From NCBI RefSeq assembly GCF_031877795.1, contig NC_133954.1, forward strand, positions 8,399,256 to 8,463,255: DNA of 64,000 bases, written 5' to 3'. This document shows positions 1 through 63,077 of the stretch, in pieces. A program made the position numbers and the translations under genes. Within the stretch, counting starts at the first letter, position 1; the number at the start of each line of letters is the position of its first letter. The DNA comes from Strix aluco. Taxonomy: Eukaryota; Chordata; Aves; Strigiformes; Strigidae. Below the pieces are notes generated by a model. It saw nothing but the letters and a program-made list of their open reading frames with translations, was not told the DNA's origin and did no database searches.

Positions 1-853
<853 letters not shown>

Positions 854-926: not shown

Positions 927-3779
927 CTATTTCTTGCTCCTTTGGCGCGAGTTTCCTCCTCCAGAGCCTTGGTCTGGGGCTGGCTCCCACCCGGAGCTCG
1001 CTGCGGCTGCAGGCAGGGGTGCTGCCTGCCACGTCCTGGCAGCGGTGGCAGCTGCGTCCCCAGCTTCGCTTGGGGACGGGGCTGAGACCTCCTGGATGCC
1101 GGGGCTGCGACGCGGGCGGCTCCGTCCCTGCCGGGGCTCAGCCGTGCGGGAGGCGGCAGCAAACCCCGACGCTCCCGCAGCTCCTCCAGCTCTTCCAGAC
1201 GGGTCCGGTGTTCCTCCAGGGCCTCCCTCCGCCGCTGCCGCGAGCGCCCGGCCAGCTCCCGGTGCAGATCCGCAAAGAAATCTGCCAGGGGTGGAGGGAG
1301 GGAGAATTACGGGAGACCTGGCGCGGACACCTGAGCTCCCCGCCACTCCTGTCACCCTTGGGGACAGAGGGACCGGCCTGCTTCACCCCCAACGTGTCCT
1401 GCTTCAGTCCAAGCACCTTGGCCTGCAGTGAAAGGGCAGCTTGGCTCAGAGAGCAACTCATCGTCTTCATCCTCACTGCTGGAAGAGCCTCCTTCCTCCT
1501 CTTCCTCACCCACGCTGCCAGGGATGGGATGGGCGTCCAGCTGCAGGAGGTGGGGCAGGGCTCCCACCACCAGCTCCCTGCAAGCACCGGAGGAAAAGCA
1601 GACGTTCCCCCGTCACATGGCATCGCCTCGGGGCTCTGAGAGTGTTTTGGGGTGTCACTGAACCCCTGGCACTAAGCCCCCCCAGCACTGCACCCCCCTG
1701 TCACTGCTTCGTGCAGCCCACCCCCCAGCCCAACCTGGGCAGAGACTCCGATTTCTGGGGTTTGGGGTGGGGGGGCTCAGGCTGTATTTGATATTTGGGG
1801 GGGCTGTACCCTGCTGAGGGGTGCGTGTGGTTTGGGGGTCTTGCTCTCCCCCTCCAGCTCCCCTGACCCACCTGTACCCGTGCTGGCGGGTGCATTCATT
1901 TCCCGTTAAATCGAGGAGACGGAGGTCGCGGGGCAGCTCCTCTGCAGGGATAAAGGGAAGGCAGAAAGGGGCTGAGACAGGACCCGAGCCCCCCCCTCTG
2001 CACCAAACCCCCACACCCCCCGCAGCTCTTCACCCACTCCTGAGGCCACAGCCCCGCCGTGAGCCCCAGCTCTCACCTCACAGCTGGGGAAACTGAGGCA
2101 GGGAGGGTGGGAATGTGTATTACACACACTCCTGTGTGAGGACTGAGGGTTGTCCCCTTCCCAGGCCCTCACTTTTCCCTCTCTCATCCCCATCTGCAAG
2201 CCAGGAGGAAGGGAGGGTGCTATTTTCCCTCTGTCCCTCCTTCTTCTGCCAAAAAATCACCCACGGGAGGAGCCAGCTGGAAGGTGCATGAAGGGTTGTG
2301 AGGGCTGGAGCAGCTTTGCCATGAGGTTGAAATCCCCACGTCTGATCTGAGCCGCTGAAATGTTCTGCCGAAGCAGGACACAAGGTGGAAGCAGACACCT
2401 GGAGTCTGCCAGCGGAAGGGATGGTCAAACCTGGTCACAGAGCTCTGCTGTCACGTTGGGACACAAAGACCAGATCCAGGGTGGCTTTTGCTGGGGCTTT
2501 GGCTGGGACCTGTGGGCCAGAGGCCCTGGCAGTGCCCGGACCAAGGGGCTGCTGGTGTTTCCCTGGTACCAGAGGCACCTCTCGGGCAGAACCAGGCCAC
2601 GTCCAGACCCGTTCCTGCCTCCCACCTGGGTCCAGCGTCTGTATCTGGTTGTGGGACAAGTCCAGGATGCGCAGCTGTCGCAGGGGCTGCAGGTTCTCCA
2701 CTCGGCGGATGCGGTTTCCAGCCAGGGAGAGGAACCTGCAGAGCACAGGGAGAGCAGTGGTGTGAGGTGGGGGGACACCACGGCCCCCAAGATCAGAGCC
2801 AGGGGCACCAGGCTGTCAGGGGGTGCAACTCAAACACCCCCCCCAGCTCTGCCAAGGGAAGGAGGGAGCCCCGTGAACTCCTTGGGGGCAGGAGCTGCCC
2901 GTACCGCAGGTTGGGAAAGCAGTCCAGGTTCTCAATCTTCTCAATTTGGTTCTGGGGGGGGAAAGAAAAAAATCATGCATGAAAAATCAGACTTCCAAAG
3001 CACCCCGGGATTGCTCCAACCTCACAGAGGCAACACAATATCCCACCGCTGCCACAGGAGCTTTGCAGAGAGGGAACGGGGCTGCGATGGCGTGGAGAGT
3101 TCAGGAGAACCCTGAGACTCCTCATGTGGGTTTAAACTGAATGTTTTAACGAGTTTAACACCGAATGGCTGATGCCAGACTCTCGCTGAATTACGCTGGT
3201 GGCATTGTCATCAGAGGGGAGCACTGCCAGCCCCTCTGGCCATGTGGGGAGGCAAAACTCTGGAGCAGAACTGGGGGTGTTTGTGGTCCCCCCGAGGTCT
3301 TTCCCCGCAGAACCGGGGCTGATCTCCGCTGCCCCACGCCTGCCATAGTGTCTTACCTGCTGTAGGTAGAGGCTGTGAATCTCCCGCAGGCTCTGGAGCC
3401 TCCCGATAGCGTGGATGTTCTCTCGGTCCAAGCGGAGGGTCGAGGGGGACAGCAGCTCCGTGGATCTAGAGGAAGAGGGGTGCTCGGGGTGTCCTTTGTG
3501 CCCAGAGACCCCTCCCTGCCAGCCTGGGTGGTGAAGAGGGGCTCTGTGCGGATCCTCACTGGCTCTCTGGGCGCGGTGGCTCCACCAGCAGGTTCCTTGT
3601 GATGATGAGGCTGTCGGTCAGGGTCACTCCTGGGGACGTCGGGTCACAGTCTGTGGGAAACCAGAGTGACAGGGCCCAGGTTAGCGGGGTCCAGTCCCCC
3701 ATACCCCCCCGGGCTGACAGGTCAGCTGGCCCTGCAAGGCTCACTCACCCCCAAGCAGGGTCTCCCCCAGGTCAGCCAT
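927..3779 (-). CDS. LRRC46: Leucine-rich repeat-containing protein 46
   Basis: A cilium/sperm-flagellum associated leucine-rich repeat protein. Eight coding exons: 3749-3779 (start MADLGETLL), 3560-3650, 3357-3465, 2905-2951, 2626-2735, 1872-1941, 1417-1577 and 927-1281; every junction has AG/GT borders and fitting phase. Residues about 45-152 hold SDS22-type repeats (IHSLYLQQNQIEKIENL, LRFLSLAGNRIRRVENL, LRILDLSHNQIQTLDP, LRLLDLTGNECT). An acidic linker (GEEEEEGGSSSSEDEDDE, about residues 176-193) follows, then a charged coiled coil from about residue 207. Oddity: the coiled coil is read in one frame, which runs on to a TAA at 875-877. The tail that resembles the human C-terminus, ending SRQRSKK at 927-929, is in another frame. 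With that tail the protein is about 323 residues, against 321 in human. I place the end at 927 and assume an indel or missed intron between about 1000 and 1170. Confidence 0.92.
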
Positions 3780-4009
3780 GGCGGGGGGGTGGCCCATGTC
3801 CTTGTCCCTTCCTTGGGCCATCGGGTGGGTGTGTCGTGGGGGCTGGGCTGGCCCCACTGCTCTCTGCAAGGGGAAGGCTGCTGAGGCAATGGGGGGCAGA
3901 AGCCTCCGGGCCGGGGGGGTCGGTGGGGACAGGACTGCTGAGCTGGGGGGGATCAGCGCTGGGACCCCCAGGTAGGGCAGCGAGACCCTAGAGCCTGGGG
4001 GGACCATGG

Positions 4010-4215
4010 GGCTGGGATCCCCGGGATGGTGTCGGGAGGGTGTCACTGGGACCAGACCCCCAGGCTGGGGGACACAGAGACCCCCGGGCTGGGGTTGGGG
4101 GGGTCACCGGGACCAGGCCCCGCGCTGGGGGGCACAAAGATCCCCGGGGTGGAGTTGGGGGATCACTGGGACGAAGCCCCTCGGGCTGGGGGGTACAGAG
4201 ACCCCCGGGCCGGGG
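4010..4215. repeat. Minisatellite, about 61-bp unit, upstream of LRRC46
   Basis: Three and a bit diverged copies of a unit of about 61 bases, built on gacccccgggctggggttgggggg followed by tcaccgggaccaggcccc. It lies between the LRRC46 start and the CpG-rich core promoter shared with MRPL10. All three plus-strand frames stay open across it, giving repeated GTRPRAGGHKDPRG-like peptides that I do not regard as coding. Confidence 0.75.
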
Positions 4216-4271
4216 GCAGGGCCGGGGCCGGGCTCGGGGGATCCCGGGGCGGCGCAGGCCGCAGCGTGCCC

Positions 4272-4284
4272 GTTGCTAGGAGAC
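4272..4284. promoter_or_regulatory. X-box-like RFX site
   Basis: GTTGCT-A-GGAGAC fits the X-box rule RYYNYY-N(1-3)-RRNRAC bound by RFX factors, which drive ciliary genes. LRRC46 is a cilium/flagellum gene, so the site makes sense for the minus-strand gene. Confidence 0.6.
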
Positions 4285-4345
4285 GGGCGGCCCCGGAAGG
4301 GGCGGGGCGAGCGGGCACCCCCTGCCGGCCCTGCGCGTCCTCTCC

Positions 4346-4355
4346 GCGCATGCGC
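4346..4355. promoter_or_regulatory. NRF1 site
   Basis: A perfect GCGCATGCGC palindrome, the NRF1 consensus, 50 bases upstream of the MRPL10 ATG. NRF1 commonly drives nuclear genes for mitochondrial proteins. Confidence 0.7.
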
Positions 4356-4404
4356 GCCGCGGGTCCGCCGCCTCCCCACAAGCCTTTGCGCTCCCGCGAC
4401 AAAG

Positions 4405-5314
4405 ATGGCGGCGCTGAGCGGTGGCGGCGCGCCATGGCGGCGGGGTGAGGGGCTCCTCACCGGGGCTGGGCGCCTCTACGGGGCTCGGGCGGGGGCGAGC
4501 GGCGATGCTGGGCGGTGCTCTGGCGGGGGAGGGTGTGCATGCGGCCCGGCGTGCCCTTACTCCCTCCCCCAGGGGCCCGGGGCCCTGACGCCGGCCTTGA
4601 GCTCTTCCCCCTGTGCGCCCTCTCCGCAGGCTGGCTGCCCGCCCTGCAGCTCGTCCGCCGCGGCTCCAAAGCCGTCACCCGTCACTGGAAGGCCATGCAC
4701 TTCCAGCGCCAAAAGCTGATGGCCGTGACCGAGTACCTGGCCCCGCGGCCGGCCATCCCGCCGCGCTGCCTGCCCCCCACGAAGGAAACGCTCGAGGAGG
4801 TAAATTTTGTGGCGTGTGGCCGTTGTGGGCTGTGGGGCCTCAGTGTCCGAGGAGACCGAGTAGCTTTGCACGCCCGGTGTGTGTGCTTTGCTCTGGGGAT
4901 TTGTCAGCGGGTCCGCAGCCCTCCCAGGCTGTGGTACACACCCCCAGGACAGCCCTGCCCCGGGCTTAGCCTGGCTGGACACCTGTACGAGAGCTTTTTG
5001 GGGTGTTTCCTGCCCCTTTTCATTACGTTGTGGGTGGCTGGGAGATGCCCCAGTTGGTAATCCCAGTACTGGAAACCAGGTGAGTCCCAATCTGTGGCAG
5101 CATTTCAGGGCAGTAGGTCCATTTGCAGGGTCAGAGTGGGGGGAGGCAGCAGCCGTTGCCCTCCGGCCCATCGCTACTTGCTCCCCTCAGGACAACGGTT
5201 ACGTCCGGCTGTTACGGCGGCAGGTGGAGGAGGTGTTCCGGGACAATCGGATGATTGCTGTGTGTCATTACAACTCCATGCCTGGTGAGGACATGGTGTT
5301 GATGAGGCACTACC
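4405..5314 (+). CDS. MRPL10: Mitochondrial ribosomal protein L10 (uL10m), 5' part, cut by gap
   Basis: A component of the stalk base of the large mitochondrial ribosomal subunit, where bL12m binds. Three exons are visible: 4405-4444, 4630-4799 and 5191-5314, the last running into the N gap. Splice borders are G|GTGAGG, CAG|GC, GAG|GTAAAT and CAG|GAC. The start is the first ATG of [13 protein letters not shown], because it alone gives the phase needed to join exon 2; a second ATG at 4434 is out of frame. Diagnostic words are [40 protein letters not shown] and [20 protein letters not shown]. They line up with the human protein to about residue 105 of 261. The N-terminus is short and basic, as expected for a mitochondrial targeting peptide. 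The remaining 3' exons are not found after the gap. Confidence 0.95.
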
Positions 5315-5514
5315 NNNNNNNNNNNNNNNNNNNNNNNNNNNNNNNNNNNNNNNNNNNNNNNNNNNNNNNNNNNNNNNNNNNNNNNNNNNNNNNNNNNNNN
5401 NNNNNNNNNNNNNNNNNNNNNNNNNNNNNNNNNNNNNNNNNNNNNNNNNNNNNNNNNNNNNNNNNNNNNNNNNNNNNNNNNNNNNNNNNNNNNNNNNNNN
5501 NNNNNNNNNNNNNN
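5315..5514. other. Assembly gap, exactly 200 N
   Basis: The run of N is exactly 200 long, which looks like a placeholder rather than a measured size. It interrupts MRPL10 exon 3. By conserved gene order, the MRPL10 3' exons, the whole of OSBPL7 and TBX21 exons 2 onward should lie here. None of them is seen on either side. Confidence 0.97.
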
Positions 5515-8500
5515 CTGCACGGCGTGGGGAGGGGTGATGGGGAAACTGAGGCAGCGTGATGCCCACCCCCCGCCTCGTGCCCGGCTGGGTGCCCGTGAGG
5601 AGCTGACTGACCCCAGCAGCTGGGGGGATGCTCTCGGGGCCGATTCCCCCCCCCACTCCCCGGTATCTTCCTCCCCCTCCCCAAGCACCTTCCGGATCGG
5701 AAACCAACACCGCTGCTATTTCGGGCTGGGCGCCAGCCTGCGCCAAGGGCAGGAAGGGGACAGGACAGGACGGCCGGGGGGGACCCTGTGGCCGTGGGGC
5801 TGCAGCTGCCACCCCCCACCATGGAGCTGCACCCCGCTGTCCCCCCCTGCACCCGGGGAGGGGGCACCCAAATCTCTGACACCCCCCCCTCTCCAAGTTC
5901 AGGCCCTCCTTTACCATCACCGGCCCCAGTAGCCCCAGTTGCCAGCCCAGGTTTGCAGCAGGGCCTTGAGCTGGGGGTGCTGGTTCAGCCCCCCCCGGCA
6001 GAGCTCAGCTCTTCGACCGCAGCATTTTGGCACCCGCTGAAGTTTTTTGGCAGCCGGAGCTGGAAACCAGCCCCAGCCCCACCAGCAGCCCCGACCCCGC
6101 TGCCTGGCCACCTCGTTAGTGTCACCCACGTTAACGAGCCATCGCTGGTGGGGAGCAGGATGGAGCCTCCCCCTCAAGACCAACATGGGGGACACAGAGG
6201 GCCCCCCAGCCCTGCTCCCAGCTTTGTTTGTGTGAGATACACATGGGGTGATGGGGAAAATCATCCTGACCCCCCCCGAGGGAAGAGGATTGGGGGGGGG
6301 GGAGGCTGCAGCCCCCCACACCCCATCCCCCTCCCTCTCTCCTCTCCTCTCCCTCCCTCCCGTGGGCTGTGCCGCTTCCCGTCTGCGGTAGCCGGTGGGG
6401 GGCGGCTGGTGGTGGGGTGGGGTCTTGGGGCTGGGTTCCCCCTCCCCTCCCCGTTTCCTCAAAGTGCTGGCGTTTCTCATAAAGCGGGTGCTGGAGCTTC
6501 TCTGAAAGGGCCCCCCTGGAAAGTCTCACCCAGCTGACGGGGTCCTGTGTAGGGCTGGGGGCTTCTGCCTCCCCCTCTGCCAGAAGGGAACCCCTGTGTC
6601 CAGGCCGGGTTTGGGCAGGGAGGGGCATAGGGGAGGGGGCTGCTCTCCGGAGCCGTCACCCCAGCAGGAGCGAGGGACAGGGCTGGCAGCGGGGCTGCCC
6701 ACCAGCAGGATTCACCCCTGGCAGGGGGCTGGTGGTGGTGGGCGGTTAATTTTCCTCCCCACCAGCATGGGAAGGGGGTCCCCTGCCTGTCCTGCCTGCC
6801 CTGCCTGCTCCTGGCCACCCCAGCCCCCAGCACACCACAGTTTCCCACCAGCCCCAAGGCAGAGACCTGTGAGCTCATGACAGGGATGACACGATGCCCC
6901 CAGGGGGCTGCTGCACCAGGGAGCCCAACCGAGCCCCCCCCCCCCGAGCCACCACCCTGCCCCTGTACACCAGGGAGGGTCTAAACACGGGTGAGGAGCA
7001 AAGCGAGGGGCTGGGGGCACAGGGGATCGGCCGTGACCCCGGCAGGAAGCGGGGCTCAGGCAGTGCCCGGGCAGCGGGGAAGCGGCATGCAAAGAGCGGT
7101 GGAAAGAGCGCGCGTAGCCCGCGCCGGGTGCTGCTGACTCAAAATTGCCCTCGCGAGAGAGAGGGGAAAAGAAAAGAAAAGAAAAAAGAAAAAGAAAGCA
7201 GCGCTTGTGGCAAAGAGCAGCGCACGTGCTCCCCAGCGCCGGAATGGCCGGTGGCCCCGAGCATCCCACGTACCCCGGGGTCCAGCCGAGCCCTCGCAGG
7301 CCCCATCCCACCACTCGTGCACCGAAAGCGGGCACCCGCCGGGGCTCAGAGCTCCTCCGGAGCCAGCGAGCCGCGGCCGTGGCGAGGGAAGGTGGTTCCT
7401 GCCACTGATAAAAACTTGCAGCCACATCAAAGGGCGGCAGCGAGGGGCTGCGCTGCCTCCGAGCCCCCGCTGAGCTCTCGCAAGGCGATGCTTTGCCACA
7501 CTCCGGGTGCCAAAACCCTCGCTGCCACCCGCACCCGGCACACCAGCGAGCCGGGGTGGTGGCTGGGCCCGGGGGCAAGCAGCCAGGCCGGGTGTTGCAC
7601 CAGCCCCGAGCTGCTGCAAGGAGCAGGGAGGAAGAAAACAGCCTTTTTCTGGGGTTTGGGTTTTTTGGGTTTTTTTTTGTTTTTGTTTTTTTTTTTGCAC
7701 CTTGCTTGCTCCGACACCGCCGGTTCCCCGGCTCCCCGAGCCTCGCGCTGCCGGCGGAGCAGAGAGAGAGAGTCACAGCTCAAACGCTGCCGCGGTGCAA
7801 ACCGCAGGGCTCGGCCGGGGCACGGGAAGGTGGGGGGTAAGACCCGAAACCATGCACGCCTCGTGTTTATTTTTAAATCCCCCAGAGCTTGAGCTCCCGG
7901 GGCTGCTGCTTGGGCAGCGCTTGGTTCCTTTGGGTTTGGCCTCTGCAATTTGGGAGGTGCCGTAGTGGGGTGCAGGATGCCCTGGACAATTCACCCCCAC
8001 CCCTGCCGTGCACCCCAAAAACCAGTGGGTGCCTCTAGTTTCTCCCCCTTCGCATGTTTGTTTTTGGAGTGCTGAAAGGGGCTCCTGGCTACCAGGTTGC
8101 GCCGAGGTTTGTCCCTGCATGAACCCCTCAACTCCTCGGGGGGCTGCAGAGGGACAGGGCGTGCGGCCATGGGGCAGGGGCACCAGGGGTCATGGGGACA
8201 TGCCAGCACATCCAGGGGACATGGGTGTCAAGTTAGGTGATGTGGGGACACTGGGGTCGGGGGGGGACACAGGCAGCAGGGATGGGGGGCCAGTATGAAC
8301 CCAGGGAAATCCAGGGCCCAACCACCTGCAAACCTGCCCAGGGCCAGGAGCGCAACCCCCCCACAGGCAGCGGTCCCCCCCAGCCCTGCCTGCCCCCCCC
8401 AGCAGCGCCCTGGGGGGGGGTGAGGGGGCTGCCAGCTTCCTGAGCTGCCTCCTCTCCCAGTGGCAACCCCGTGCGCCCCAGCCCGAGCGGCCGCAAGAAC

Positions 8501-11500
8501 CACAGTTGCAGTGGAGATCGGCGCAGCCCCCCGCCACGTTCCACCTGCCCCCCGCCCTCACTGCGCGGCTGTAGGGCACGGCACGGTGACATGGCGCAGT
8601 GACACGGCACGGCTGCTTGGCATGGCACGGTGACACGGCCTGGCTGCACGGCACGGCACAGTGGCACAGCACAGTGACACGGCACGGTGACACGGCACGG
8701 CTGCTTGGCATGGCACAGTGACACAGCCTGGCTGCACAGCACGGCACGGTGACATGGCCTGGCACGGTGACACAGCCTGGTGGCACGGCACAGCACGGCA
8801 CAGCGGCGTGGTGCCATGTGGCTGCGTTGCACAGCTGCGTGGTTTCATGGCGCGGCTCTTGGGCACGGCACGGTGACACGGCATGGCACAGTGACACGGT
8901 ACGGCTGCACGGTGACATGGTGTGGCCTCACGGTGTTGCGTGGCTGCATTGCACAGCACGGCATAGGTGTGTGGCACAGCTACATGGCGGCACGGCACGG
9001 CACAGCACGGCTACACCGCTGCCTCCGACCCCGCAGAGCTGCCCGCCGGGCACCGGGTCCCCCTCAGCCCAGCCCACACGAGAACAGCAGCTGCCAGCCC
9101 GGACAAACCATCCCTGAGTCTCCCCAAAAAAGGCAAAACCAGCTCTTGTGTTCCCCCAAATGTGTGGCCACCCCTGGCACCTCTCAAACCAAAGCCAACC
9201 CTCATGTCAAACCCAGCCCGTGTGTCCCCAAAGCTGTCCCCCATGTCCCCTCCAAAGGCAACACCATCCCTTGAGTCCCCAAATGCAAAGCCAGCCCCTG
9301 TGTCCCCCCAAAAAGCAAAGCCAGCCCCGACTTCGCAGCAGAAACCCGTGGCAGGAATTCCCCAGGCCCTTCGCAGCCGGGGCGATGGTGAGTCCTTGGG
9401 GGTTTCCGCAGAAATCCTGCCCCGGCTGAGCCCCAAGAACCGTGGGGGGCGGAGGAGGGATGGGCACCCGCGTGGGAAACCGGGAGGAAATTATTTTTGC
9501 TGGGGACGAGTGGGTGCAGGACAGCGTGGGATGGCACGGGAGGGCGGCGTGTCAGAGCCGGGGCAGGGAAGGCGCCAGGGGGATAAATCCCAGCGCCCCA
9601 CCAGGTTCGCCCCGGTGCCGCTGTCTCCCACCCGGCCTCAGCTCCTCTCCTTGGGGATGCGGGGGGCTGCACCCCAGAGATGCTGCCAGTGGGATGGGAC
9701 ATGTCCCCTGCCCTGCCCCAGAGCCCCGCAGCATGGTGGGTGCCAGCTTTGGGGCACCCGTCCCCCTCAAAGCCCCGCTTTGGGGTTTTTCCTGTGTCTC
9801 AGCAGCGCTGCAGCCCGGCCCTGCACACAGATTTTTGCAAAAGCAGCTCGGGGTTGGGGGAAACGGATGTTTTGTGGCTCTGAGTTTGACGTCTCCCCGG
9901 GCTGGGTTTGCTGTGAGCCCCCCCCCGGCACAGAGCACATCCCCCGCCCAGACCCCAGCCCCTCTGCAGAGCTGGCGGGGGGGATGGAGCTGGAAAAAAA
10001 GCCCCCAAAATCGCCTCAGCTTCAGGCTGGGAGCTGGTGGCAGAGCCCGGAGGGGCAGCGGGGCAGAGGGGAGGGGGTCTTTGGGGGCACCCCAGTTTCC
10101 AGACCCTCACCACCAGATCCTGAGCCACTCTGATGCAGGGGAGTGGGACGGGCACTGCCCCAGCACCGGCCACGACGGCTGGGAAAAAGAGGAGGAAAGC
10201 AACGGGGCGGATTTCAGTGGGTTCCTGGAGGACCTGAACGATGGTGGGTGAGAAACAACCATTTGTGGGGGCCCAGCACCCCCGTCACCCCCTTGGCCGA
10301 TGCTGGAGACGCGTCACCCCACCCGTGATGGTGCCGGTTTGCTGTGAGCGGCCCCAAGGCTGGAGGGGGGGGGGCAGCAGGCCCGGGAACGGCCGTGGCA
10401 AACCAAGCGGCCCTAACGTGTTTAGACTTCCAACACATTAAGCAGGTTGGGCTCAGCATCGAAGTGACACCGTCTGTCTCAGCCGAGGGAAGAGGACACA
10501 GAGCGTCGCTGCCGGCAGCCCCCACGCTGGGCAGAAAGAGACCCCCCGGGCCAGGGAATGCGGTGGAAGTGGGGGGGGGTGTCTCTGCCAGCTGCCCCGT
10601 CACCCCCTCGCTGGGGATTTTCAGCAGCCACGGCAGCCCCTGAGCCCGATCCGGAGGGGGCTGAGCCCCAAACTCAGCCCCACCACGCTCCCGCTCCCCT
10701 CCTCACCCCAGCACGGCCCCACTGAGACCTCCCAAACTGCAGCCCAGGGCCCGGCTCCCCCCCCCCCCCGCACCCCACATCACCCCACTGTGACGGGCTC
10801 AGGGTGGGCACCAACATTTCAGGTTCCCTTTGCTCCAAGTCGGGGCGACTCCACAACCCCCCAGGGCCCGTATCAGACCCAGCCCCCTCCAGACCCTGCA
10901 AACAGGGGTGTTGGCAAAAGGTGGGGTGGGCCTTAGCCCCCCCCCCATATCTCCCAACCCTCCCCCAGGGTCCCCCAGCCTGTGAACACCCGCAGCACGG
11001 AGGGGACAGCAAGTGCCCGGCTGTGGGGTCACCAACGGCTGTTTCGGCACCCAGGACGTTGCCGAAATGTTCCCCCTTCCCCAGGAACATGGCGGGGGTG
11101 GGGGTGGGGGGGCACCCGGCCTCTGCCTGCCCCACGGAGCGGGGGGGGTGGATTTCCATCCCGGAAGGAGGACAGCAAATAGAGGGGGGTGTCACCCACC
11201 CCCCCCCCTGCGCTCAGGGGGTGGCACCGGGCTCTCACTACTTGTTGCAGCGCTGAGCTCAGGATCCGGCCCGTGGGTCGAGGCCGGATAAACGCTGCCT
11301 CCAGGCCCCCGGCACCATCTCTGCAACCTTTCTGGCACAACAAACCCTGCCCGGACACAGAAGGTCTGGACCCCCAACCTGACACAGTGGGGGACACCCC
11401 CCAGACTCCTTTCTCCTTCCAGCAAGTCTCAACTCCCCTAGAAAACAAGACTTGGGGGGGGTCTGATCTACTTTGCTCCCCCACTTTTTTTTTTCCCCTT

Positions 11501-11858
11501 TGCACAGACAGACAGGCATCACCCCCAAACCCACAGGTGTGGGGATCCCCTCTTGCACATCTCCCCCCCTCCACCTTGCACAGGCGGCCCCACAAACACC
11601 TCCCACCCTTTGGGGACACAAGGCAAGAACCTCCGGCCCCTCACCGTGCCGGTCAGCCCCTGCCCACCCCGCAGCCCCCCCAAACCTGTCCCTCACCCCT
11701 CTCTGCGTCCCCCACCGCCAGCATCCCCAATGCCCCCACCCTGCCTGTATCCCAGCCCAGGGACCCCCACCCGCTGCTCCCCAACGCTGGTTCTGTTCCC
11801 GGTCTCTGTCCCGGTACCCCCTCCCGGTGCCTCCCCCCGGTAACCCCCGGTACCCCGG
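5515..11858. other. Exon-free GC-rich DNA, probably TBX21 intron 1
   Basis: I read both strands for T-box words (FPFLSF, RMFVDV, NRLYVHPDSP, TAYQN), OSBPL7 words (pleckstrin domain; oxysterol-binding EQVSHHPP) and the MRPL10 C-terminus, and found none. The stretch is GC-rich with many G and C homopolymers, a minisatellite at 8570-9015, and a T/G tract at 7650-7697. The region 7020-7900 is CpG-rich and could be a regulatory patch or alternative promoter, but nothing proves it. The simplest reading is one long intron following TBX21 exon 1. Confidence 0.6.
8570..9015. repeat. Minisatellite built on cacggcacggtgaca
   Basis: About 445 bases made of irregular variants of tggcacggtgacacggcacggctgc, with subunits of about 10 and 15 bases. 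Several frames on each strand stay open, giving His/Cys/Ala/Val-rich peptides; this follows from the repeat and is not evidence of a gene. A shorter tract of the same word type occurs at 33505-33600. Confidence 0.9.
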
Positions 11859-11863
11859 CTCAC

Positions 11864-12327
11864 CTGCCCTGCTTGGTGATGATCATCTCGGTCTGGTGCT
11901 TGTGGAACTTGGCCCAGAGCGGGTAGTTGTTGAGCATCACCTGCACCTTCCCGGCCGCCCGGTACCCGGGGAGGGCGCAGAGCGGCCCGGCGCGGGGGCA
12001 CAACGGCGCAGCCCCGGGGGTGTAAGCGCCCTCCGCACCCCCGTACAGCTCCGCGCCCGCGTAACCCTCCACCGCGTAACCCTCCACCGGAGCAGCCGCG
12101 GGAGGCGGCGGGGCCCGGTAAGGCGGGCACGGTCCCAGAAACCGGCCGCCGAAGCTACCGGGAGCACCGTAGGGTAGCGGGGGGACTCCCGGCTCCGGTC
12201 CCCCTCCATCACCGTAGAAGGCGGCGGCATCCCGGGGGCCCGGCGGCTCCTTGGCGAAGCTGGAGGTGCCGCTGAGCATGGGGGCGGCGGGGCGGGGGGC
12301 TCCGGTGCCCGGCTCCAGCGCGCCCAT
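11864..12327 (-). CDS. TBX21: T-bet (TBX21), exon 1 only
   Basis: The first coding exon of T-bet, the T-box transcription factor that directs Th1, NK and related lymphocyte programmes. It encodes 154 residues plus two bases, from MGALEPGTG to TKQG(R), and ends at a good donor CAG|GTGAG (11863/11864). The first 125 residues are a Gly/Pro/Ala/Tyr-rich transactivation region with [14 protein letters not shown] and a duplicated [10 protein letters not shown]. From about residue 126 the T-box begins ([19 protein letters not shown], then TEMIITKQG), matching the human segment up to the same exon border. EOMES and TBR1 share the T-box start but not this neighbourhood; TBX21 lies between OSBPL7 and TBKBP1 in human. 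Exons 2 onward, with most of the DNA-binding domain, are absent from the window. GC content is very high throughout. Confidence 0.93.
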
Positions 12328-12440
12328 GGACGGGGGGGGCGGGCACCGGCCCCGTTCAGCCGCTCATGGGGGCCCCACCGGCGGCCCCGGGACCGCGTTT
12401 CAGCGGTTCCCCCCCCACCGGGCTCCCACCGCCCCCTCCA
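11940..12440 (-). promoter_or_regulatory. CpG-rich 5' end of TBX21
   Basis: Dense CpG covers the first exon and about 100 bases upstream of the ATG. No TATA box is visible. The transcription start cannot be fixed from sequence alone. Confidence 0.5.
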
Positions 12441-27032: not shown

Positions 27033-30000
27033 TCAGATCTTGCTGTTCTCCAGGTGCGAGTCGATGTGCTTGACCAGGGCATCGTCCGGGTACCCGATGG
27101 GGAAGGCCAGCTGGCACAGCGGGCAGCTCCGCACCTCCGAGTCCACCGTCTCCAGCAGCAGCTGTTGGGGGGGGGGCACAAGGTGGCACTGAGCCCCCCC
27201 CCCCCCCCAAATCCCCCCTCGGCACCCTCCCGCTGCCGGGTGCGGGTTGGGATGCCGGTCAGAAATAGGGAAACTGAGGCACCCTGCTTGCGTGGTGCAG
27301 GGGGTTCCCTTGCCTCTCTCCGTGCCCCCCCCCCACCCCATCGCAGAACATCCCTGGAGCAAAGAGGGGGGGTCCCCACTTACGTTGATCGAAGGCCAGG
27401 ACTGGGCGTGCTCTGCCCGGGCGTAGGCAGCGGCCGTCCGGTGCACGGCGTCGGCGTCGGGGAAGCCGGCGCAGAAGGATGCGCAGCGGATGGCCCCCGC
27501 CTCGGGGCTGGGGGGGCTGGGGAGAGCCCACTCCTCCTCGTCTGACGATTGCTTCTCGAAACGCACGTGCTCCTCAAAAGGCTCGCGGGAGCTCAGGGGG
27601 GCCCCCGCGCCCCCCAGGTACACCTCGCCGTAGGGCCGGTGCTTGGGGAGCGTCGAGGCTTCGGGCTGGAGCCAGAGCGAGCGGCTCTGCTGGTACAGGG
27701 CTACGTTGGTCACCTCCGAGTAGCTGCGGCGGCCCTGGAAGCCGGCTTTGATGTGGCGGCTGGAGGGTTTGGCGTATCCCAGCTCCATCCTCTCACCGGG
27801 CAACCGGTGCGGTGACGCCGAAGCCGGGGACGGGCACGGCGGTGGGGCTGGGGACCGGCGCTGCTGGGCGGGCGACTGGTTGGAAGGGGGCACCGGGGAC
27901 CGGCGTTGCTGGGCAGGGGATTGGCAAGGGCCGGGGGCTGGCGAGCGGCGTTGCTGGGCCGGCGACTGGCTGGGGGGTCCCGGCGAGCGGCGTTGCAGCG
28001 CTGGCGACTGGCACTGGGGTGCTGGCGAACGCCCTGGTTGAGCGGGCGAGGGGCACTGCGGGGCGGGCGAGCGGCGTTGCTGGGCTGGGGAATGGCACTG
28101 GGACAGCGGGGAGTGGCGCTGGCCTGCAAAGCAAAACGGGGTGGGGGGAGAGCACAGAAAATTACACACACACACACCCCTGTCAGCTCAGCCTGCCCTC
28201 CTGTCATCTCATGGGGGGGGGGGAGAGAAAAGAAGAAAAGGAAGAGAAGAAAAAGAAAAAGGAATTTAAAAAAAGAAGGAAAAAAGAAGGGAAAGAAGGG
28301 AAAGAAGGAAGAGAAAAAGGAAGAGAAAAAGGAAAAGGAAAAGGAAAAGGAAAAGGAAAAGGAAAAGGAAAAGGAAAAGGAAAAGGAAAAGGAAAAGGAA
28401 AAGAAAAAGGAAAAGAAAAGAAGAAAAGAAGAAAAGAAGAAAAGAAGAAAAGAAGAAGAAAATAGAAAAAGAAGAAAAAGAAAATAGAAGAAAATAGAAA
28501 AGGAAGAAAGATGAAGAAAAGAAGAAAAAGAAAAAAGAAAATAGAAAAAGAAGAAAATAGAAAAGGAAGAAAGATGAAGAAGAAAAAGGAAGAAATAAAG
28601 GAAGCAGCACAAATACCCCCCGTCACCCAAGTGCATCCCGGACGGCTGGGGGGATGCGCCCCGCGGGGAGGGATGCTCTTGGGATGGACGATGGCAGCCA
28701 GCGCGGTCTCCCCGTTTTTTGCATCCCCGGCCACGGGGTGCAGCCCCCCCACCCCTGGCCCCCCCTTACCGCCGTTGAGGCTCTTCTCCTGCAGCAGGGC
28801 GCGGAGGATCTGGCTCTGCAGGGAGCTGAGGTTCCGCAGGCGACACAGCTCCTCCGTCAGCTCCGTGTAGGCCAGCGCCAGGTTCACCCTGCGGCGGGGA
28901 CGAAGCGTCACCGGGGGGTGAAACAGCCCCGGTCCCCAGATGGGGGGGGGGGGTCCCCCTGCCATGAGGTGCTGTGGGGAGCACCCAAAAGTACCCCAAA
29001 TTCAGGTTTTTAACTCAAAAGGGAAAAGTTGTGGCTGTGCATCGTACCCGTGGGCACCCCCTGGGGAGCAGTCAGGAGCGGGAGGGAGGTGGGTGCTACA
29101 GTCACCCCCCCCCCCCCACTTTCCCAGCTCTCGGAGGCCCTGACAGAGTCATCAATTCTTCCCCAACTTCGGTGTCGCTTTTCAAAAGCATATTCTCCGC
29201 GGTGATGCGAAGGGAGAAGCCGCCTCCCGAGGGCCCCGCGGGGCTGGGGGCTCAGCGCGTCCTCCCGCGCCACGCGCCGAGGGTTCAACTGAGCCGTTGT
29301 GACACCCCGGGGACCCGGGAGACACCGCTCGTAACAGCAGCTGACAGGTCTGCCCCTGCCCGCCCTCCTGTCATCTCATGGGGGGGGAGAGAAAAGAAGA
29401 AAAAGAAAAAGGAATTTAAAAAAAGAAGAAGAAAAAAGAAGAAAAAGAAGAAAATAGAAAAAGAAGACAAGATAAAGAAAGAAGAAGAAGAAAAGAAGAA
29501 AAGGAAAAAGAAGAAAAAGAAGAAAATAGAAAAAGAAGACAAGATAAAGAAAGAAGAAGAGAAGAAAAGAAGAGAAGAAGAGAAGAAGAGAAGAAGAGAA
29601 GAAGAGAAGAAGAGAAGAAGAGAAGAAGAGAAGAGAAGAAAAAAGGAGAAAGGAAAAGGAGAAGAAAGGAAAAGGAGAAGAAAGGAAAAGGAGAAGAAAA
29701 GAAGAAGAAGAAACGAAGAAGAAAAGAAGAAGAAAAGAAGAAGAAGAAGAAAAGAAGAAAGAAAAAGAAAAGAAAAAAGAAAAGAAAAAAGAAAAAGGAA
29801 AAAGGAAAAAGGAAAAAGGAAAAAGGAAAAAGGAAAAAGGAAAAAGGAAAAAGGAAAAAGGAAAAAGGAAAAAGAAAAAAGAAAAGAAAAAAAAAGAAGA
29901 GAAAAAAGAAAAAGAAAAAAGAAAAGAAAAGAAGAAAAAGAAGATAGAAAATAGAAAAAGAAGAAAAAGAAAATAGAAAATGAAGAAAGATGAAGAAAAG

Positions 30001-33000
30001 AAAAAGAAAAAGTAAGAAAATAGAAAAGAAAGATGAAGAAGAAAAAGAAAAAGGAAGAAAAAAGAAATAAAATAGAAAAAGAAGATAAAGAAGAAAATAG
30101 AAAAAGAATAAAAGAAAATAAGACAACAAGAAATGAAGAAAAGAACATAGAGAAAGAGTAAAAAAAAGAAAAGAAAGTAAAAAAGACCTTTCTGTAGCTG
30201 GGTACCCGTGTCACGGCCCCGAAGTCCCCAGGGCGGCCCCGCACGCGGCTGCCCTGACCCCCCCGGCACTTCCCCGCTCCCTCCTCTCCTGCCTCCGCTT
30301 CCCCCCGTGGCCCATCGTGGGCTGCGGCCGCTCCCCGAAGCGGGGGGGTCCCGGCTCCCCCGGCCCCGCTGCTGGATTTCGGTGGCTCCCACCATGGGGG
30401 GGCCCACCCCAGCCCCCCAAAGTCACGCTGAGGCGCAGGGAGGAAGCGCCAAAACCGCAGCGCTGGGGTGGAGGAGCGAGCGGTGCCGGGGGGGGGGGTG
30501 TGGGGGGGTGTGGGGTGGGGGGACACGAGCAGCCCCCGGCCCCCACCCAGGGCACCCTGCCAGGACCCCTGCCTGCGGGTGGGGGGGGCAGGAACCTGCC
30601 CCATGGGTCCCTCCTGCAGCTGGGGGGGTTGTGAGGCTTTTCAGAAGGTTTGATGCCAGCGGAGGGAAATGTGGGGGGGTCTTGGTGCCCCCACCCCCCC
30701 AGGCATCGTTTCAGGGCAAAACCGTGGGGTTTTGATACGCGACTGCAGATAAGCGTGAGAACAAAACAGCCACCGAAAACCCGGCCGCCCACGCCTGCCC
30801 CGCTGCTGCTGGGGGGGGCAGATGGAGCTGGGGGGGCACGTGGGCCCCCCCCTGCGACCCCAGTGGGACCCCCGACACCGTGTCCCCTCCTTGTCCCCCA
30901 CCAGCGATGCTGTGGCTGGTGGGGGGGGGGGGGGGGGGCATGATCAGCCCCAAGCACAGCTGAGACCCCCCCAAGGCAGGACCACCAAAGCAAGGGGCTG
31001 GGGACACACGGGGGGGGGGGGGGGCTGGGGTGCAATGTGTGTGTGTGTCCCCCCCAAACCACCCCGTGGGGGGCACCAGACCCATCTGAGGCGGGGGAGC
31101 AGCTCCCCCCCGTCCCCAGCAAATGACACCCATCATCCCTGCGGCGTGGTACCCAGAGAGATACCAACCACATCACATCCCTCTCGCCTCACCGCAGGGC
31201 TGGGCCCCCCCCCGCCCCCCCCCCCCGGCCCCGTGTGGTCCCCAGAAACCTGGGGGACACAAACACACACACGATGGCATCTTCGTACCACCAGGACTGG
31301 GGTTTGGCCCCCACTCGTGGTGGCAAAGTTAATCCACGGTGTGTGGGTGATGGCCAGGGTGCAGACCCCCCCCCTGGTGGGGTGGAGGGGGCAGCGAGGA
31401 GTTGGGGGGGGGTAGGGGGGAAGGGGTGACCTTGAGCGAGTCACACCTGGTAAACAAGAAGTGGGCGAAGAGCGAAATAAAAGCAGGAACCCGCAGGCAC
31501 AGCTGCCAGGGGGGGCTGGGGGGAGCATGGGGTTGGGGGGGGACCCCTTTGCTGGGGGGGCGGAGCCAGGGAGGGGAGCAGGGGACAGTTGGGGACATCC
31601 CAGCACAGGCAGCAAAGCACCGTTAGCAAAGGAGGCAACGAGCAGGGTGGCAGCCCCAAGACGGGCACCCAGGGGTGCAAAATTCATTAAACCCCCTAAA
31701 ATCCCACCAAAATGGTGTCAGCAGCAGGGCAGCGACAGGCACGGGGCTGAGGGGGGGGGGGTGTGTGTGCTCTGACCCCCCCCCTGCACCCACCACCCCT
31801 GGTTTTTGGCCCTGTGTCACCCCTGGATGGTGGCGGCGAGATCCTGGGGACGGATCCTGCAAAGCGGCCCCTGGTCCTGCAGCTTCCCAGCACCCTCCGC
31901 GCCCCCCCCCCCGCACCCCCCTGCTCCCCCCGGGGCTTTCTCTGTGATTTAGCTCCCCGCTTTTCCTGGCCCCGTCCCGAGGAAGCACAAGTGGGAACGG
32001 TTGGAACCTCAGAAAGGACAAAAAAATAAGGACAAAACCTAGAAAAGAAACAAAAAAATCCCAAAATATCCCCAAAACAAAAAAATTAACCAAAATAATA
32101 AAAAAAAGAGGGCCGGAGGGACCCCCACCCCGCTCCCGCTGCGGCAACACGCTGACTAATTCGACAAAAGCGAGCCAGAAAAGTCACCCGGAGATGGAAA
32201 GCGCCGATAAGGTGCCTTTCACACCAAAAAAGTGGTGGAGAGATGCAGGTTACAAAAAAAAGAGCCGTATTTACCAGAAAAGAGCGAAAAGAGCGGGGAG
32301 GGAAAGGCTGGGCCCGGGGAGGGGGGAAGGGGCTCCCAGGCCTGGGGGTGAGGGGTGAGGAGCTGGCCCTGCCTCAGTTTCCCCACCCTGACCTGGGGAA
32401 GTCGGGCTTAAAAACAAGGTGGGTTTGGGAAATGTTAATATTTGGAGTTTTATTTCTCGGTGGGGGCTGGATATTGTGGGGAGGGGGATGGGGAGAGGGG
32501 GTACGGGGAGAGGGGGGGCGGTGAGGAGAGGGGGGATGGCACAGGGGGGGTGAGCTCGGCTCTCCCGGACACGGCAGGGCTGAGCTTTGTGAAAAATAAA
32601 ATGAATTATTTTTCGAGGTTCTCCAGGGGAGGGTTATCGAGGGACCCCCCCGGGGCAGCGCGGTGGAAAAATGGGGCGGCAGCCGCGCGGCCGCAGCCCC
32701 CCAGGGACGCTGGTGCGGAGGTGCCTGGCCCCCCCCTCCGAGCCCCGCGCGCTGATTTACGCCGGGGAGACAAGAAATGGCAAAAGCATCCAACACCTCG
32801 GGAAAAAGGAGGGGGAACGCCCCCCCGCCCCCCCCCCCAAACACCCCGGCACCTCCCTGTGCCAGGCGAGTCCCCGCGCGTCACCTCGTATCTGTCGGCA
32901 GCTCGGCAGGGGCTGACGGCCCCGGTGGATACTGGGGGGGGGACAGTGGGGGGACACAGGGGTGCCAAGTCCTGCTGCCACAGCCCGGCAGCCCCGCGTG

Positions 33001-35575
33001 TGCGAGGGCAGCGGGGTAACGAGGCTGTTGCCTAATTAATCAGGTTACGGGCGGCTGCTTTGCACACCCCGATACCAGGGTTGGCCCCGGGGGCCGGACA
33101 CGGGGAGAAGCCCCTGCCCTGGCGCAGCCCCCCCCCCCCCCCCCCAGCCCTCATCAGCCCTCCCCAGATTTAGGGCTGTCTTGGCCCAAACCCCCCCCAA
33201 ATCCGAGGTGCTCAGTCCCTCTCCCAGCCCCCCACGGTACCTGGGGGTGCCCCAATGGAGCCCCCAGAGCTCACAGCTGCAGCGAGGGGGAGGCCAGGAA
33301 GAGGCGCGAGGCCCAGAGGACGGACTCGGGGCACCGGCACCGCGACAGCTCCGCGCCCCGTTACACCGTCACCAAAAGAAAAACTCTGGCAGGGTTTGGT
33401 ACGGAGCCGGAGATGGAGTCGGGGCAACCAGAGGCTCCTCCGAGCAGCCTGGACACGCTCCTGGTGCTGCCCGGTGCAGCCAGGCCGGTGTCCCGCGGCG
33501 TGGCACAGCATGGCACGGTGTGGCACGGTGTGGCACGGTGTGGCACAGCATGGCACGGTGTGGCACGGCATGGCACAGCGTGGCACGTCGTGGCACCGCG
33601 TGGGCTCGCTGCTCTCGGCAGCCACAAGCCGTCAGTGCCCTCTGGAGGCAGCGGCTCACTCGCCCAGGCGGCACCGCGCAGCCCGTACGGCACCGGACAC
33701 ACCGGCCCGCGGCCACCCCACGCCTGGAGCCCAGGTCAACCCCAACCCACCGGGGCGCAGCTTTTGGGGTGCAGGATCCCACCTGCCCGCAGCACTTCAA
33801 AGCGGGGGAGGCCCCCAAGTCCTGTCCCCAGCAGAGAGTCCTGCGTGTCCCCAACCCTCCCTGCCAGCGTGGGGACCCCCCTCCCAGCACAGCCCAGCAC
33901 TTACTGGTCGTCGCCCACCTTCTTCACCCAGGCCATGTCCCGCTCCGACTGGTCCTGGGGAGAGCAGACGCCTCATCAGCACCCAGACCCCCACCCATGG
34001 GAGATGGGGGATGATCCCGCGCAGCCGCCCCCCACCCGCTACCTGCTCCCGGGTGTCCTGCAGATGCTTCAGCTCCGCCTGCAGCCGCTCGCACTCGGCT
34101 TTGAGATGCTCCTCGCGGTGCTGGGCCCGCTGGGTCTCCTGTCGCGCCGCCTCCAGCTCGGCCTCCAGCCCCCGGCTCTGCCAGCCCCCGGCACGCTCCA
34201 GCACTGCGGGCGCCACACGGCTCAGCACCCCCTTCCCCGGCACCAAGGCTGTGGGGCCGGGGGGAGAATGGGGGGCGCTGCTCACCGTGGGTCAGGCCAG
34301 GGTTGGGGTGCAGGGCGAGGAAAGGCACCTCCTGGCCCGCCAGCGGGGTGCCCAGCCCGGGGAAGGTGCCGCCGTCGCGCTGCCGCAGCTGCTGCTCCAG
34401 GCTCCGGATGCGGCTCAGGTGCGTCTCCACCAGCGCCCGCTGCCCGGGGAGGGGCGGGGGGGAAAAGGGCTGAGCCCCGTGGACACAGCACCCCCTCCCC
34501 GGGGTTCATCCCACCCCCCCTTCCCAACAGACCCGACGCTCGAGGTCCCCGTGGAGCTGGTGGCCGTGGTGGCAGGGTGACGGGGGGATCTGTCACTGGC
34601 ACGTGGCCGGCTCAGAAGAGGGTGGCACGGTGGGGGTGGCCCCCACCTCGGGTCGGCAGAGCGTGGCGCTGGATGGGGCAGGGGAAAATGGGATGGGGGA
34701 CAGGCACCACGCCGGGGCCGGGAGCGTCCCTCGGCGGGACGGGGCGGGGAAGAGACGGGGATGAAGGTGAGTCCCCCCCACCGCGGCCGTAACGGGGGCA
34801 AGTGGCCACGGCCCCCCCAGCCCCGCTGAGTCCCGGCGGTGGCCCTGGCAGCGCCGGGGGACAGAGAAGCAACAATCTGCTTGGCTGCTGTCGCAGAGCG
34901 GGGAAGGGGGACCCCGGCGTCCCCCCAGGCGCCCGAACGGCACCCACCATCTCGCCCAGCTCGGTCTCCAGGTCGGCTTTCTCCACGCAGAGCTTCTCGT
35001 AGGCCTGGATCATCTCCTCCAGCTGCTCCTCCCGCTCTTTGCTCTTCTGCAGCTGCCGGGGAGGCAGGCGGGGGGGTGGGTGGGCAGTTAGGGGACCCCC
35101 CCCCACCCCTGCGTCCTGCGGCCCCCCGCCAGCCCCACTCACCTCGTGCTGGAACTGGTTGAGCTGCTGCTGCAGCGACGCCTTCTCGCTCTTGAGCAGC
35201 GACGTCTCCTTGGCCTCGTAGAGGGAGAAGATGTGCTCCTCCCCGAACTCGCCGATCAGCGGGTACTGCGGCCGCGGGGCACAGGAATCAGCGGGGACCC
35301 CCGGCCCTGTGCCTGCCCCCCCCCCACCTCCCCGGTCTCCCCCAGCCCCTCACCTTGACCTCGTACATCTTAAGCCGGCGCTTGAGCGTGGAGTTCTCCC
35401 TCTCCAGCCCCGTCAGCCGGTTCTTGATGTCATCGTAGGCGGTGATGAGGGCGAAGTGGGAGGCCGAGCACATCTCGCCCGAGAGGTCGGTGTTGGGGCT
35501 GTCGAGCCAGTCGTCGTCCGGCCCCAGCGCCTCCTGCGTCAGGATGCTGATGTCGTCCTCGAACATGGAGTCCAT
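27033..35575 (-). CDS. TBKBP1: TBK1-binding protein 1 (SINTBAD)
   Basis: A cytoplasmic adaptor that binds the kinases TBK1 and IKKe in innate antiviral signalling. Nine coding exons: 35354-35575, 35143-35265, 34948-35052, 34286-34439, 34043-34203, 33905-33954, 28770-28888, 27384-28123, 27033-27161. They sum to 1803 bases, or 600 residues; human has 615. All phases fit. The start MDSMFEDDISILTQEALG aligns with the human start. Residues 50-270 form a coiled coil (SLQQQLNQFQHELQKSK, EEMIQAYEKLCVEKADLE). The exon at 28770-28888 holds the TBK1-binding domain (VNLALAYTELTEELCRL, SSLQSQILRALLQE; about 273-306). Residues 313-410 are a QRRSPxPxxQSPAQ-type Ser-Pro repeat. Next come KAGFQGRRSYSEV and IRCASFCAGFP, and a C-terminal C2H2 zinc finger with Cys571, Cys574, His590 and His594. 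The 5.0-kb intron 33904-28889 carries a large polypurine tract. The protein looks complete. Confidence 0.96.
27849..28123 (-). repeat. Coding Ser-Pro tandem repeat in TBKBP1
   Basis: The 5' part of exon 27384-28123 is an imperfect tandem repeat at DNA level (units such as gccggcgactggctgggggg and gcgagcggcgttgctgggc). It encodes about ten copies of QRRSPAP or QCQSPA blocks. Repeat number and length are likely to vary between species. Confidence 0.85.
28206..28606 (+). repeat. Polypurine tract 1 (GGAAAA and AAGAAG arrays)
   Basis: Almost pure A/G on the plus strand for 400 bases. It includes about 12 copies of AAAAGG at 28327-28403, then GAAGAAAAGAA and GAAAATAGAAAAA words. It lies in the TBKBP1 intron between the TBK1-binding exon and the Ser-Pro exon. 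Frames across it read Lys/Glu/Arg only, or Phe/Ser/Leu on the other strand. Confidence 0.95.
29378..30186 (+). repeat. Polypurine tract 2 (GAAGAA, AAAAAGG arrays)
   Basis: About 810 bases of nearly pure A/G, with GAAGAGAAGA arrays (29570-29640), AAAAAGG arrays (29790-29870) and AGAAAATAGAAAAAG words. It opens with the same sequence as tract 1 (gccctcctgtcatctcatgg, then gggg, then agagaaaagaag), so the two are related by duplication. It lies in the neighbouring TBKBP1 intron, on the other side of the exon 28770-28888. Confidence 0.95.
33505..33600. repeat. Minisatellite of 10-bp TGGCACGGTG
   Basis: About nine copies of tggcacggtg or tggcacagca directly before the short TBKBP1 exon 33905-33954 on the minus strand (inside its downstream intron). 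It shares its word with the tract at 8570-9015. Confidence 0.9.
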
Positions 35576-41500: not shown

Positions 41501-43580
41501 TCCCACCTACCCAAGGCACCCCCGGGGGTGCCCGAGGACCCTCCGCTGGGTGCCCACCCCTGCGCGTTGGGTGCCAAGGCTGCAGGAACGGCCCCAGCCC
41601 GGTGCTGGCGGGGGCTGCACCCAGGAGCAGCACAGCACCTCCGGGCTCCCCAAAAGCTCCGAGCGCGGAACGACTTCGCTAAAACACAGAGGCAGCTGCA
41701 CGCACGGGCGGAGAAAACCACAGTGTTATCCGGCACCGGAGAGCTGCAGCGGTGGGATTCGGCGTTTCCTCGCCGTAGGCTCGAGCTCAGCGGGGCAGGA
41801 CACAAGTGACGGGCTGCGGGTCCTCGTCCAACCCTGCTGCTGCCCGATCCCCTGCCCTGGCCACGGGAGCAATAAGGGGAGGAGGGTCCAGGGGAGCACA
41901 AGCAGGGAAAAGCTGCTCGGAGAGCATAAAGCCCCCACGCCGGAGCCTGTCCCCGCTCAGCACAGCCCTTCCACAATCACACTGGGCCTGGTTGGGCCCA
42001 TCCAGCTCCCGCGTGCTCGCAGCAGGGAGGTCGGACATCTCGCATCCAGACTTCCCAATATTTTGGATCCCTGCGGCCGCGCGGGGCCCGGGTTTTGCGG
42101 GACATGGCGGTTTTCCACCGACGCTCCCCAGCAGCCGGCGCACGGAGCAAAACCACCCGCTGCGCTCGCACCCGCGCCTCAGCAACAGGGTTCAGGGGAA
42201 GAGCTGTAAAATTCAGCTCCCCGCAGCGAGAAAGTTTCACTCGAGTGGTGACACCAGCTCAAGGGCCACGCTGACCGCCCTGTCCCCCCCCCACCCCGGA
42301 CGCTGATTCGTGCCACCCTCACGGGTGGGAAACTGCAAGTGCCGGCGGCGCCAGACAGCGACTGCGAGAGGGCACCGAGGCCACGGCACCACCTCCAAGA
42401 CTAGAAAATCAAGTTGTTGGGTTTTTCCCCCTTCTTAAGGCTGCAGGAAAATCAGGTTTTATCCTCACGCTGCGGGACGCAGCCGGCCTGGGGGAGCTCA
42501 GCACATCAGCCCGCTCACCTCGAGCCACCCATCGCTAGGAAGATGCTAAATAATAAAATCCAGCGTCGGGAGAAGAGACCGAGCTCCTGCTCCCAGAAAT
42601 AGCTCTGTACGGCCCCGCTATCCTCGGGTGCTGGAGTGGCACATATGGCTGATGACACACTGCTGTCACCTCCGGCTCCCCCAAAGAGGAAACGGGCGAT
42701 CGTCACTCATTGAGCGCACACCCACACAGTCTCTCCGAGCCACCGCGGCGGGGGAAGAACGCTGGCAGGAGGAGACGCGGCGGGCTCTGGGAAAATGAAG
42801 CAGCAAAAAAAAAAAAAAAAAAAGTAAGGAAAACAAAAATAAAGCGTTTTTTTTTTTTAATTTAAAAGGTAAATAAATCGGTCCTACCGATTTGTTAAGG
42901 AATTGGGTCCTTTCCAATCGTTATTACCGAGAGGGGAGGTGACGCGGCGTGTCAAAGCCTTCGCTACCGGGAGGCGCCGGTTCCTTCGCTGGGTGCGACC
43001 GACAAATCGACAACGTTAATAAAGGAACTCAGCTGGGAGCTACGACTTCAGGATCGCGTTAATGGGCGCTTTTAAACTCTTCCCCCACCTGCGCCGAGAG
43101 ATGGATGTAGAAGGAAAAGGCCCGACGCGAAGCGACAGAGCGGAGCCGCCGCTCGGGGCACCTTGGTAGCCGCGTGGCTCCGGCGAGTGGCGCCCAGCCC
43201 AGGTTGCCCGCTGAGGCTGGGCTCTGCTGAGACAAGCATGTTTCGATTCTAGTGCTGAAATGGCACTTTGAAAAGAAAAAAAAGAATAATCCAGGATTTA
43301 TTCTGTTAATTAGATGTGCCAAGCAGTGAAATCGCCTCTTAAAAAAAAAAAAAAATATATGTATAAAATGGGTATTTGGCCCTCCCTCTGCAGCCAGCAA
43401 GGGGATCGAGGGGTGAGAGGCACAGGGGAGGCAGCGGGTGCAGCTCCTGCTCACGTAAAGCCTGCACCGCTGCAATTACTTTGAGAAACGAAAGCAAAAA
43501 AAAAAAAACAAACCAAAAAAACCCAAAAACAAACCCAAAAAAAGCCCCAAAACAAACAGGACAGACACAAGGTTTGTTTC
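38502..43580. other. TBKBP1-KPNB1 intergenic region
   Basis: About 5 kb with no supported gene. It contains a 22-C run (38735-38756), a 12-bp tandem repeat at 40355-40434 and several AT-rich patches that look like conserved noncoding DNA: 38760-38845, 39825-39895, 40735-40780, 40960-41200 and 43010-43080. The A/C-rich tract 43490-43560 lies just past the KPNB1 poly(A) site. Confidence 0.5.
40355..40434. repeat. 12-bp tandem repeat GCAGGCAGGGAY
   Basis: Six to seven copies of gcaggcagggac or gcaggcagggat. In one frame it reads QAGTQAGM, in another AGRDAGRD; I treat both as noncoding. Confidence 0.9.
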
Positions 43581-43584
43581 CACT

Positions 43585-45918: not shown

Positions 45919-63077
<17,159 letters not shown>

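Follow-up and report, generated by a model that had tools for sequence, protein, structure and literature searches.

Gene order at the locus

The window, a stretch of 64,000 nucleotides of the Strix aluco genome (C24:8399256-8463255), carries parts of MRPL10 and TBX21 (T-bet) on either side of a run of N, together with SCRN2, TBKBP1 and KPNB1. When the window was compared by tblastn with human proteins, the order SCRN2, MRPL10, gap, TBX21, TBKBP1, KPNB1 was found. This agrees with the human order, which we take to be SCRN2, MRPL10, OSBPL7, TBX21, TBKBP1, KPNB1, and measured against that order the synteny of TBX21 with TBKBP1 and MRPL10 is present. OSBPL7 gave no match in the window at E<=0.01 (tblastn). 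The missing pieces are exactly the block that the human order puts between the flanks. The features of the window are the following.

143..307, + strand: C-terminal exon of SCRN2, a synteny anchor (tblastn 64%, E 8e-19)
4630..4799, + strand: second coding exon of MRPL10 (tblastn 64%, E 5e-20; PDB uL10m match with exons 2 and 3 joined; boundaries set by eye from AG/GT)
5191..5314, + strand: third coding exon of MRPL10, interrupted by the gap near residue 114 of some 261 (tblastn 51%, E 5e-11; PDB alignments)
5315..5514, no strand: placeholder of 200 N joining two contigs, its size nominal (only N run; same in the assembly)
5515..11863, - strand: right contig between the gap and TBX21 exon 1, placed within intron 1 of that gene by its position (without matches to T-box, OSBPL7 or MRPL10)
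11864..12327, - strand: coding part of TBX21 (T-bet) exon 1, 464 nt (ATG at 12327, GT donor after 11864)
27036..35575, - strand: TBKBP1, a synteny anchor (tblastn, 6 stretches)
46608..63077, - strand: KPNB1, a synteny anchor (tblastn, 17 stretches, 73-100% identity)

A 200-N placeholder cuts MRPL10

The placeholder consists of exactly 200 N (5315-5514) and is the sole N run in the whole window. The identical run stands in the assembly record itself, and hence it is no artefact of window cutting. All genome searches were performed in the window's own assembly (1,414,655,264 bases in 202 contigs), in which the C24 scaffold measures 10,630,453 bases. No further 200-N gap was found in the 132,516 assembly bases scanned, and the gap convention is thus not visible from within the assembly. 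For a skink assembly scaffolded with YaHS, 54 gaps are reported, with 200 Ns marking each (PMC12134992).

At the left edge of the gap, human MRPL10 matched the forward strand of the window with residues 16-79 at 4623-4811 and with residues 66-114 at 5167-5310. A further MRPL10 row at 27785-27552 (E 0.005) lies within TBKBP1, and all remaining rows obtained in the window at E<=10 with the MRPL10 and TBX21 queries had an E of 0.066 or more. The MRPL10 exons matched no Pfam family at E<=0.01 and a protein query was used in its place. Six PDB chains were matched; in the four that have 257-262 residues, the alignment ends at residue 114, or at 109 in one case, and the other two chains are shorter. 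The reading frame continues into the N run. It had been claimed from a first reading that MRPL10 stops inside exon 3 at the gap, which fits the sequence, though the true exon end is hidden.

By human length, the unseen portion of MRPL10 amounts to about 147 codons, or 441 nt. We searched for this half with human MRPL10 residues 115-261 (147 residues, a query identical to PDB 3j7y_I) and obtained no match at E<=10 in 1.41 Gb. The control for this empty search was the other half of the protein, rather than the same query in a genome known to match. Residues 17-114 (98 residues) gave nine genome matches, of which the two best were the window exons (E 3.6e-18 and 7e-7) and the other seven had an E of 0.5 or more.

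Because the 3′ half of MRPL10 alone needs about 441 nt, the true gap should be longer than 200 bases. A mitoribosomal protein such as MRPL10 is something that an animal can hardly lack. Since a protein of this type is needed in every animal, the 200 N are a nominal gap size and real sequence is absent from the assembly. The first-pass annotation had described the run as exactly 200 N with a true size that is probably unknown, and both the N count and a MRPL10 remainder of more than 200 nt uphold this description.

We also compared the two edges of the gap with each other. No repeat common to both was found between 2001-5314 and 5515-12400 (low-complexity filter on, E<=1e-3), and a collapsed join via such a repeat was therefore dropped as a candidate. 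The first 1,486 bases of the right edge are unique in the genome except for one 48-base match at 88%. On the left side, the part searched against the genome (4601-4802) was found in one place.

TBX21 is visible as exon 1

The first coding exon of TBX21 comprises 154 codons plus two bases without a stop, and GTGAGC follows directly after 11864. The open frame and the GT donor support the earlier statement that T-bet exon 1 is present and intact. Its GC content is 73.9%, with a GC3 of 85.7%. When searching the window with human TBX21, residues 97-164 were matched at 12060-11863 on the minus strand, and over its whole length the exon can be aligned with residues 1-164 of the human protein (42%, E 3e-16). 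With the EOMES-like and TBR1-like loci of the same genome, only the last 29-36 of its 155 residues were alignable. The best PDB match of the exon was TBX21 (5t1j, E 7e-9, 37 bits), followed by TBX5 at 24.5, in a list of solved proteins that has no row for EOMES or TBR1. In Pfam, the exon matched T-box positions 1-26 with 27.2 bits (cut-off 26). Identical residues within this T-box part numbered 22 of 30 for T-bet, 24 of 30 for the TBR1-like locus and 22 of 29 for the EOMES-like locus. These 30 residues were dropped as stand-alone proof of T-bet, being slightly nearer to the TBR1-like locus. Judged by its N-terminal alignment, by synteny and by the presence of EOMES-like and TBR1-like genes elsewhere in the genome, the exon is assigned to TBX21.

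On C24 the T-box domain is incomplete, with profile positions 1-26 of 182, and its single match on that scaffold is TBX21 exon 1. Together with the window tblastn, this agrees with the earlier claim that only exon 1 of the gene is visible. The remainder of the T-box would be expected inside the gap. Its absence is thus a limit of the assembly, and what can be named as TBX21 here is an exon 1 only. Profile and tblastn searches found no T-box, MRPL10 or OSBPL7 exons in 5515-11863. In the presumed intron 1 of TBX21, positions 8575-8935 hold tandem repeats that are GC-rich and degenerate, with periods from 13 to 88 bases.

Genome-wide searches for the missing exons

When searching the genome with the T-box profile, 71 matches were obtained at E<=10, and all 66 first-look candidates were scored. 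The matches are confined to C1, C2, C3, C4, C6, C10, C16, C18, C19 and C24 (10.6 to 173 Mb each). T-box loci were fetched for the best 30 of the 71 matches; the other 41 are the exon 1 of the window, one decayed exon and matches judged by their place, many of which adjoin a fetched exon. The T-bet T-box was compared by tblastn with 35 loci, namely the assembly locus that carries the 200 N, the 30 T-box loci and four loci from the Oxysterol_BP search. TBX21 T-box exons after exon 1 were not found anywhere in the assembly, neither with the T-box profile nor by tblastn against the 35 loci, in six-frame exon searches of a kind that may overlook short or diverged exons.

Among the examined loci, the T-bet exon 2 query (residues 30-82) had its top identities at C1:147.42 (66%) and C6:19.68 (62%). 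Other loci whose match begins with T-bet exon 2 reached 49% or less. From their motifs, we take the C1 locus to be EOMES and the C6 locus to be TBR1. In both, the match to the T-box profile begins at position 2 or 3 and extends to 182. These two loci also gave the only two matches in the genome to the Pfam family T-box_assoc (PF16176), which was dropped as a test for the T-bet C-terminus after human TBX21 was itself unmatched at E<=0.01. T-bet exon 3 did not discriminate, with 86% at the TBR1-like locus and 85% at a locus taken for TBX5. With 47% across the entire domain, a one-exon T-box locus on C4 had the top single tblastn score. We considered the weak T-box exon at C18:11163701-11163865 as a stray T-bet exon and rejected it, because it has a stop and looks decayed. 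This lone exon precedes a T-box gene in the same orientation by about 13 kb and may be a decayed copy.

For OSBPL7, the Oxysterol_BP profile gave 66 matches in 12 places of the genome, none of them on C24; the place on C10 was weak (E 0.08). A 237-residue fragment of human OSBPL7 gave 33 genome matches. Two class III loci were found with it, C6:26.47 (six exon rows, 41-76%) and C1:139.80 (six rows, 59-87%), and no third class III locus was found in the genome by this search. We then compared OSBPL3, OSBPL6 and OSBPL7 over eight stretches of four fetched loci, and OSBPL7 was the best by bits in none of the eight. OSBPL6 was best in four of the five C6 stretches and OSBPL3 in the fifth, and in the C1 stretches OSBPL3 was best in three of three. 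By these scores, the two class III loci appear to fit OSBPL6 and OSBPL3 better than OSBPL7. The absence of OSBPL7 between MRPL10 and TBX21, noted at first reading, thus stands, and none was found genome-wide either.

Base composition around the gap

Up to 43 kb the GC content per kilobase was 58-75%; the exceptions were the kilobase containing the N run (52%) and two that hold polypurine arrays (53% and 41%). The 500-base flanks of the gap have 60% and 70% GC, compared with 56% for MRPL10 exon 3 and 74% for TBX21 exon 1. Beside the gap, G4-like motifs occur at 1.0 and 3.0 per kb, versus 3.6 per kb in the assembled stretch of 11.9-42 kb. Neither edge is more extreme than the stretch of 12-42 kb, which is assembled, and no measured edge feature singles out the gap site.

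The polypurine (GA-rich) arrays lie in the TBKBP1 gene at 28213-28588 and 29390-30176. They contain pure tracts of up to 230 bases and are assembled. Further along the window, at 42000-44000 near the 3′ side of KPNB1, the GC content per kilobase falls sharply, from mostly 58-75% before to 35-56% after. Runs of G or C of eight or more occur at 3.3 per kb in 12.6-42 kb and are absent from 43-64 kb.

The first-pass annotation had put the hole down to GC richness. The analysis did not establish this, given the moderate GC of the edges, the assembly of neighbours that are more GC-rich and the presence of an exon 1 with 74% GC. If the gap itself held very GC-rich or polypurine stretches, a dropout there could be the cause, which is compatible with a placeholder over missing sequence. 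In favour of it are the high GC of most kilobases up to 43 kb and the polypurine tracts at 28.2-30.2 kb, and passages of PMC4539667 and PMC9516821 describe how avian genes of high GC go missing from databases. However, the GC content of the edges and the rarer G4-like motifs beside the gap speak against it, the polypurine tracts were themselves assembled, and the content of the gap is unseen. We therefore consider such a dropout a possible but somewhat doubtful cause.

An assembly hole as the probable explanation of the missing block

At this locus MRPL10 is cut at a placeholder, TBX21 is present as exon 1, and the rest was not found in the assembly. The absent exons coincide with the N run, and the MRPL10 half, OSBPL7 and the TBX21 T-box exons were found nowhere else in the assembly. 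Most simply read, OSBPL7 and TBX21 exons 2-6 have gone missing just as the half of MRPL10 has. We are highly confident that this is an assembly hole, in which an unassembled or left-out block lies behind the 200 N, and all three genes are most probably present in the animal. A scaffolder, itself presumed, would have joined two contigs and written the join as 200 N, while the 3′ half of MRPL10, OSBPL7 and TBX21 exons 6 to 2 would never have been assembled or would have been omitted from the release. We infer what the hidden stretch contains, how long it is and that its genes work. T-bet is likely to be whole in the animal.

A real deletion or rearrangement could also have removed TBX21 exons 2-6 and OSBPL7, with the gap as a mere break in sequencing at the margin of the event. 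The searches of the assembly yielded none of the missing exons, as such an event would have it, and passages of two chicken expression studies do not have TBX21 in the cells that they discuss (PMC8631335, PMC10826067), which is a weak hint and may reflect another species. However, the missing block takes in the C-terminal half of MRPL10, which argues that real sequence is missing, the N run marks the spot, and TBX21 exon 1 retains its frame and splice donor. A deletion is therefore very unlikely.

T-bet drives the Th1 and NK programmes in mammals. If the species had truly lost T-bet exons 2-6 (and OSBPL7), exon 1 would be a relic and type 1 immunity would proceed without T-bet, perhaps with EOMES alone; we regard this as highly improbable. 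No report of T-bet loss in birds was found in the literature searched. The names TBX21, OSBPL7 and MRPL10 do not occur in the main texts of PMC12954441, PMC9516821, PMC8449477, PMC10700341, PMC6321700 and PMC5470226, and the term T-bet is absent from the main texts of PMC12954441, PMC8449477, PMC10700341, PMC6321700 and PMC5470226. In the sections seen, PMC4690019 treats T-bet in fish and mammals, and the authors of PMC11156169 state that they know of no reagents staining chicken Th transcription factors. Passages of two further papers describe 'T-bet' measured by PCR in chicken (PMC9163350) and quail (PMC12271169). To see how well these primers fit the EOMES-like or TBR1-like loci, we compared them with the 35 loci and the window on both strands; the four best matches had 3, 4, 2 and 4 mismatches, counts which do not discriminate.

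A wrong join of contigs that are not neighbours, with the missing exons at the ends of other contigs, is barely credible. A placeholder join presumably lacks base-by-base proof, but the gene order across it is the human one, the missing exons were found on no other contig and the right flank is unique apart from the 48-base match.

Significance and comparison with known systems

With an assembly hole as the preferred reading, a gene set made from this assembly would wrongly show T-bet as broken (a one-exon TBX21), MRPL10 as truncated and OSBPL7 as lost. The locus also offers a way to tell a hole from a loss, in that a required gene interrupted by that gap goes missing likewise. As an instance of seeming gene loss it is ordinary, useful mainly as a warning for annotation and of low interest as biology.

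Compared with mammalian TBX21, the likeness is that the owl exon 1 aligns over human residues 1-164 and that TBX21 is its best match among solved structures. The difference is that exon 1 alone is visible here and that its T-box residues are slightly nearer to the TBR1-like locus.

It is well known that bird genes can seem lost because of GC-rich dropout and gaps in assemblies, as passages of PMC4539667 and PMC9516821 set out. The hidden genes in birds described in PMC4539667 resemble our case in the GC-rich locus, the small scaffold and genes that are seemingly absent. The main text of that paper is without TBX21, T-bet, OSBPL7 and MRPL10, and a GC cause is here only a candidate. The false gene losses in vertebrate assemblies in PMC9516821 are biased, as far as its passages tell, towards GC-rich 5′ regions and older assemblies. 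In contrast, the GC-rich exon 1 of TBX21 is present here, the exons that follow it are absent, and the scaffolds of the assembly are of chromosome size. The two cases are alike, by the same passages, in that exons are missing or replaced by N at a gap and genes are truncated in the release.
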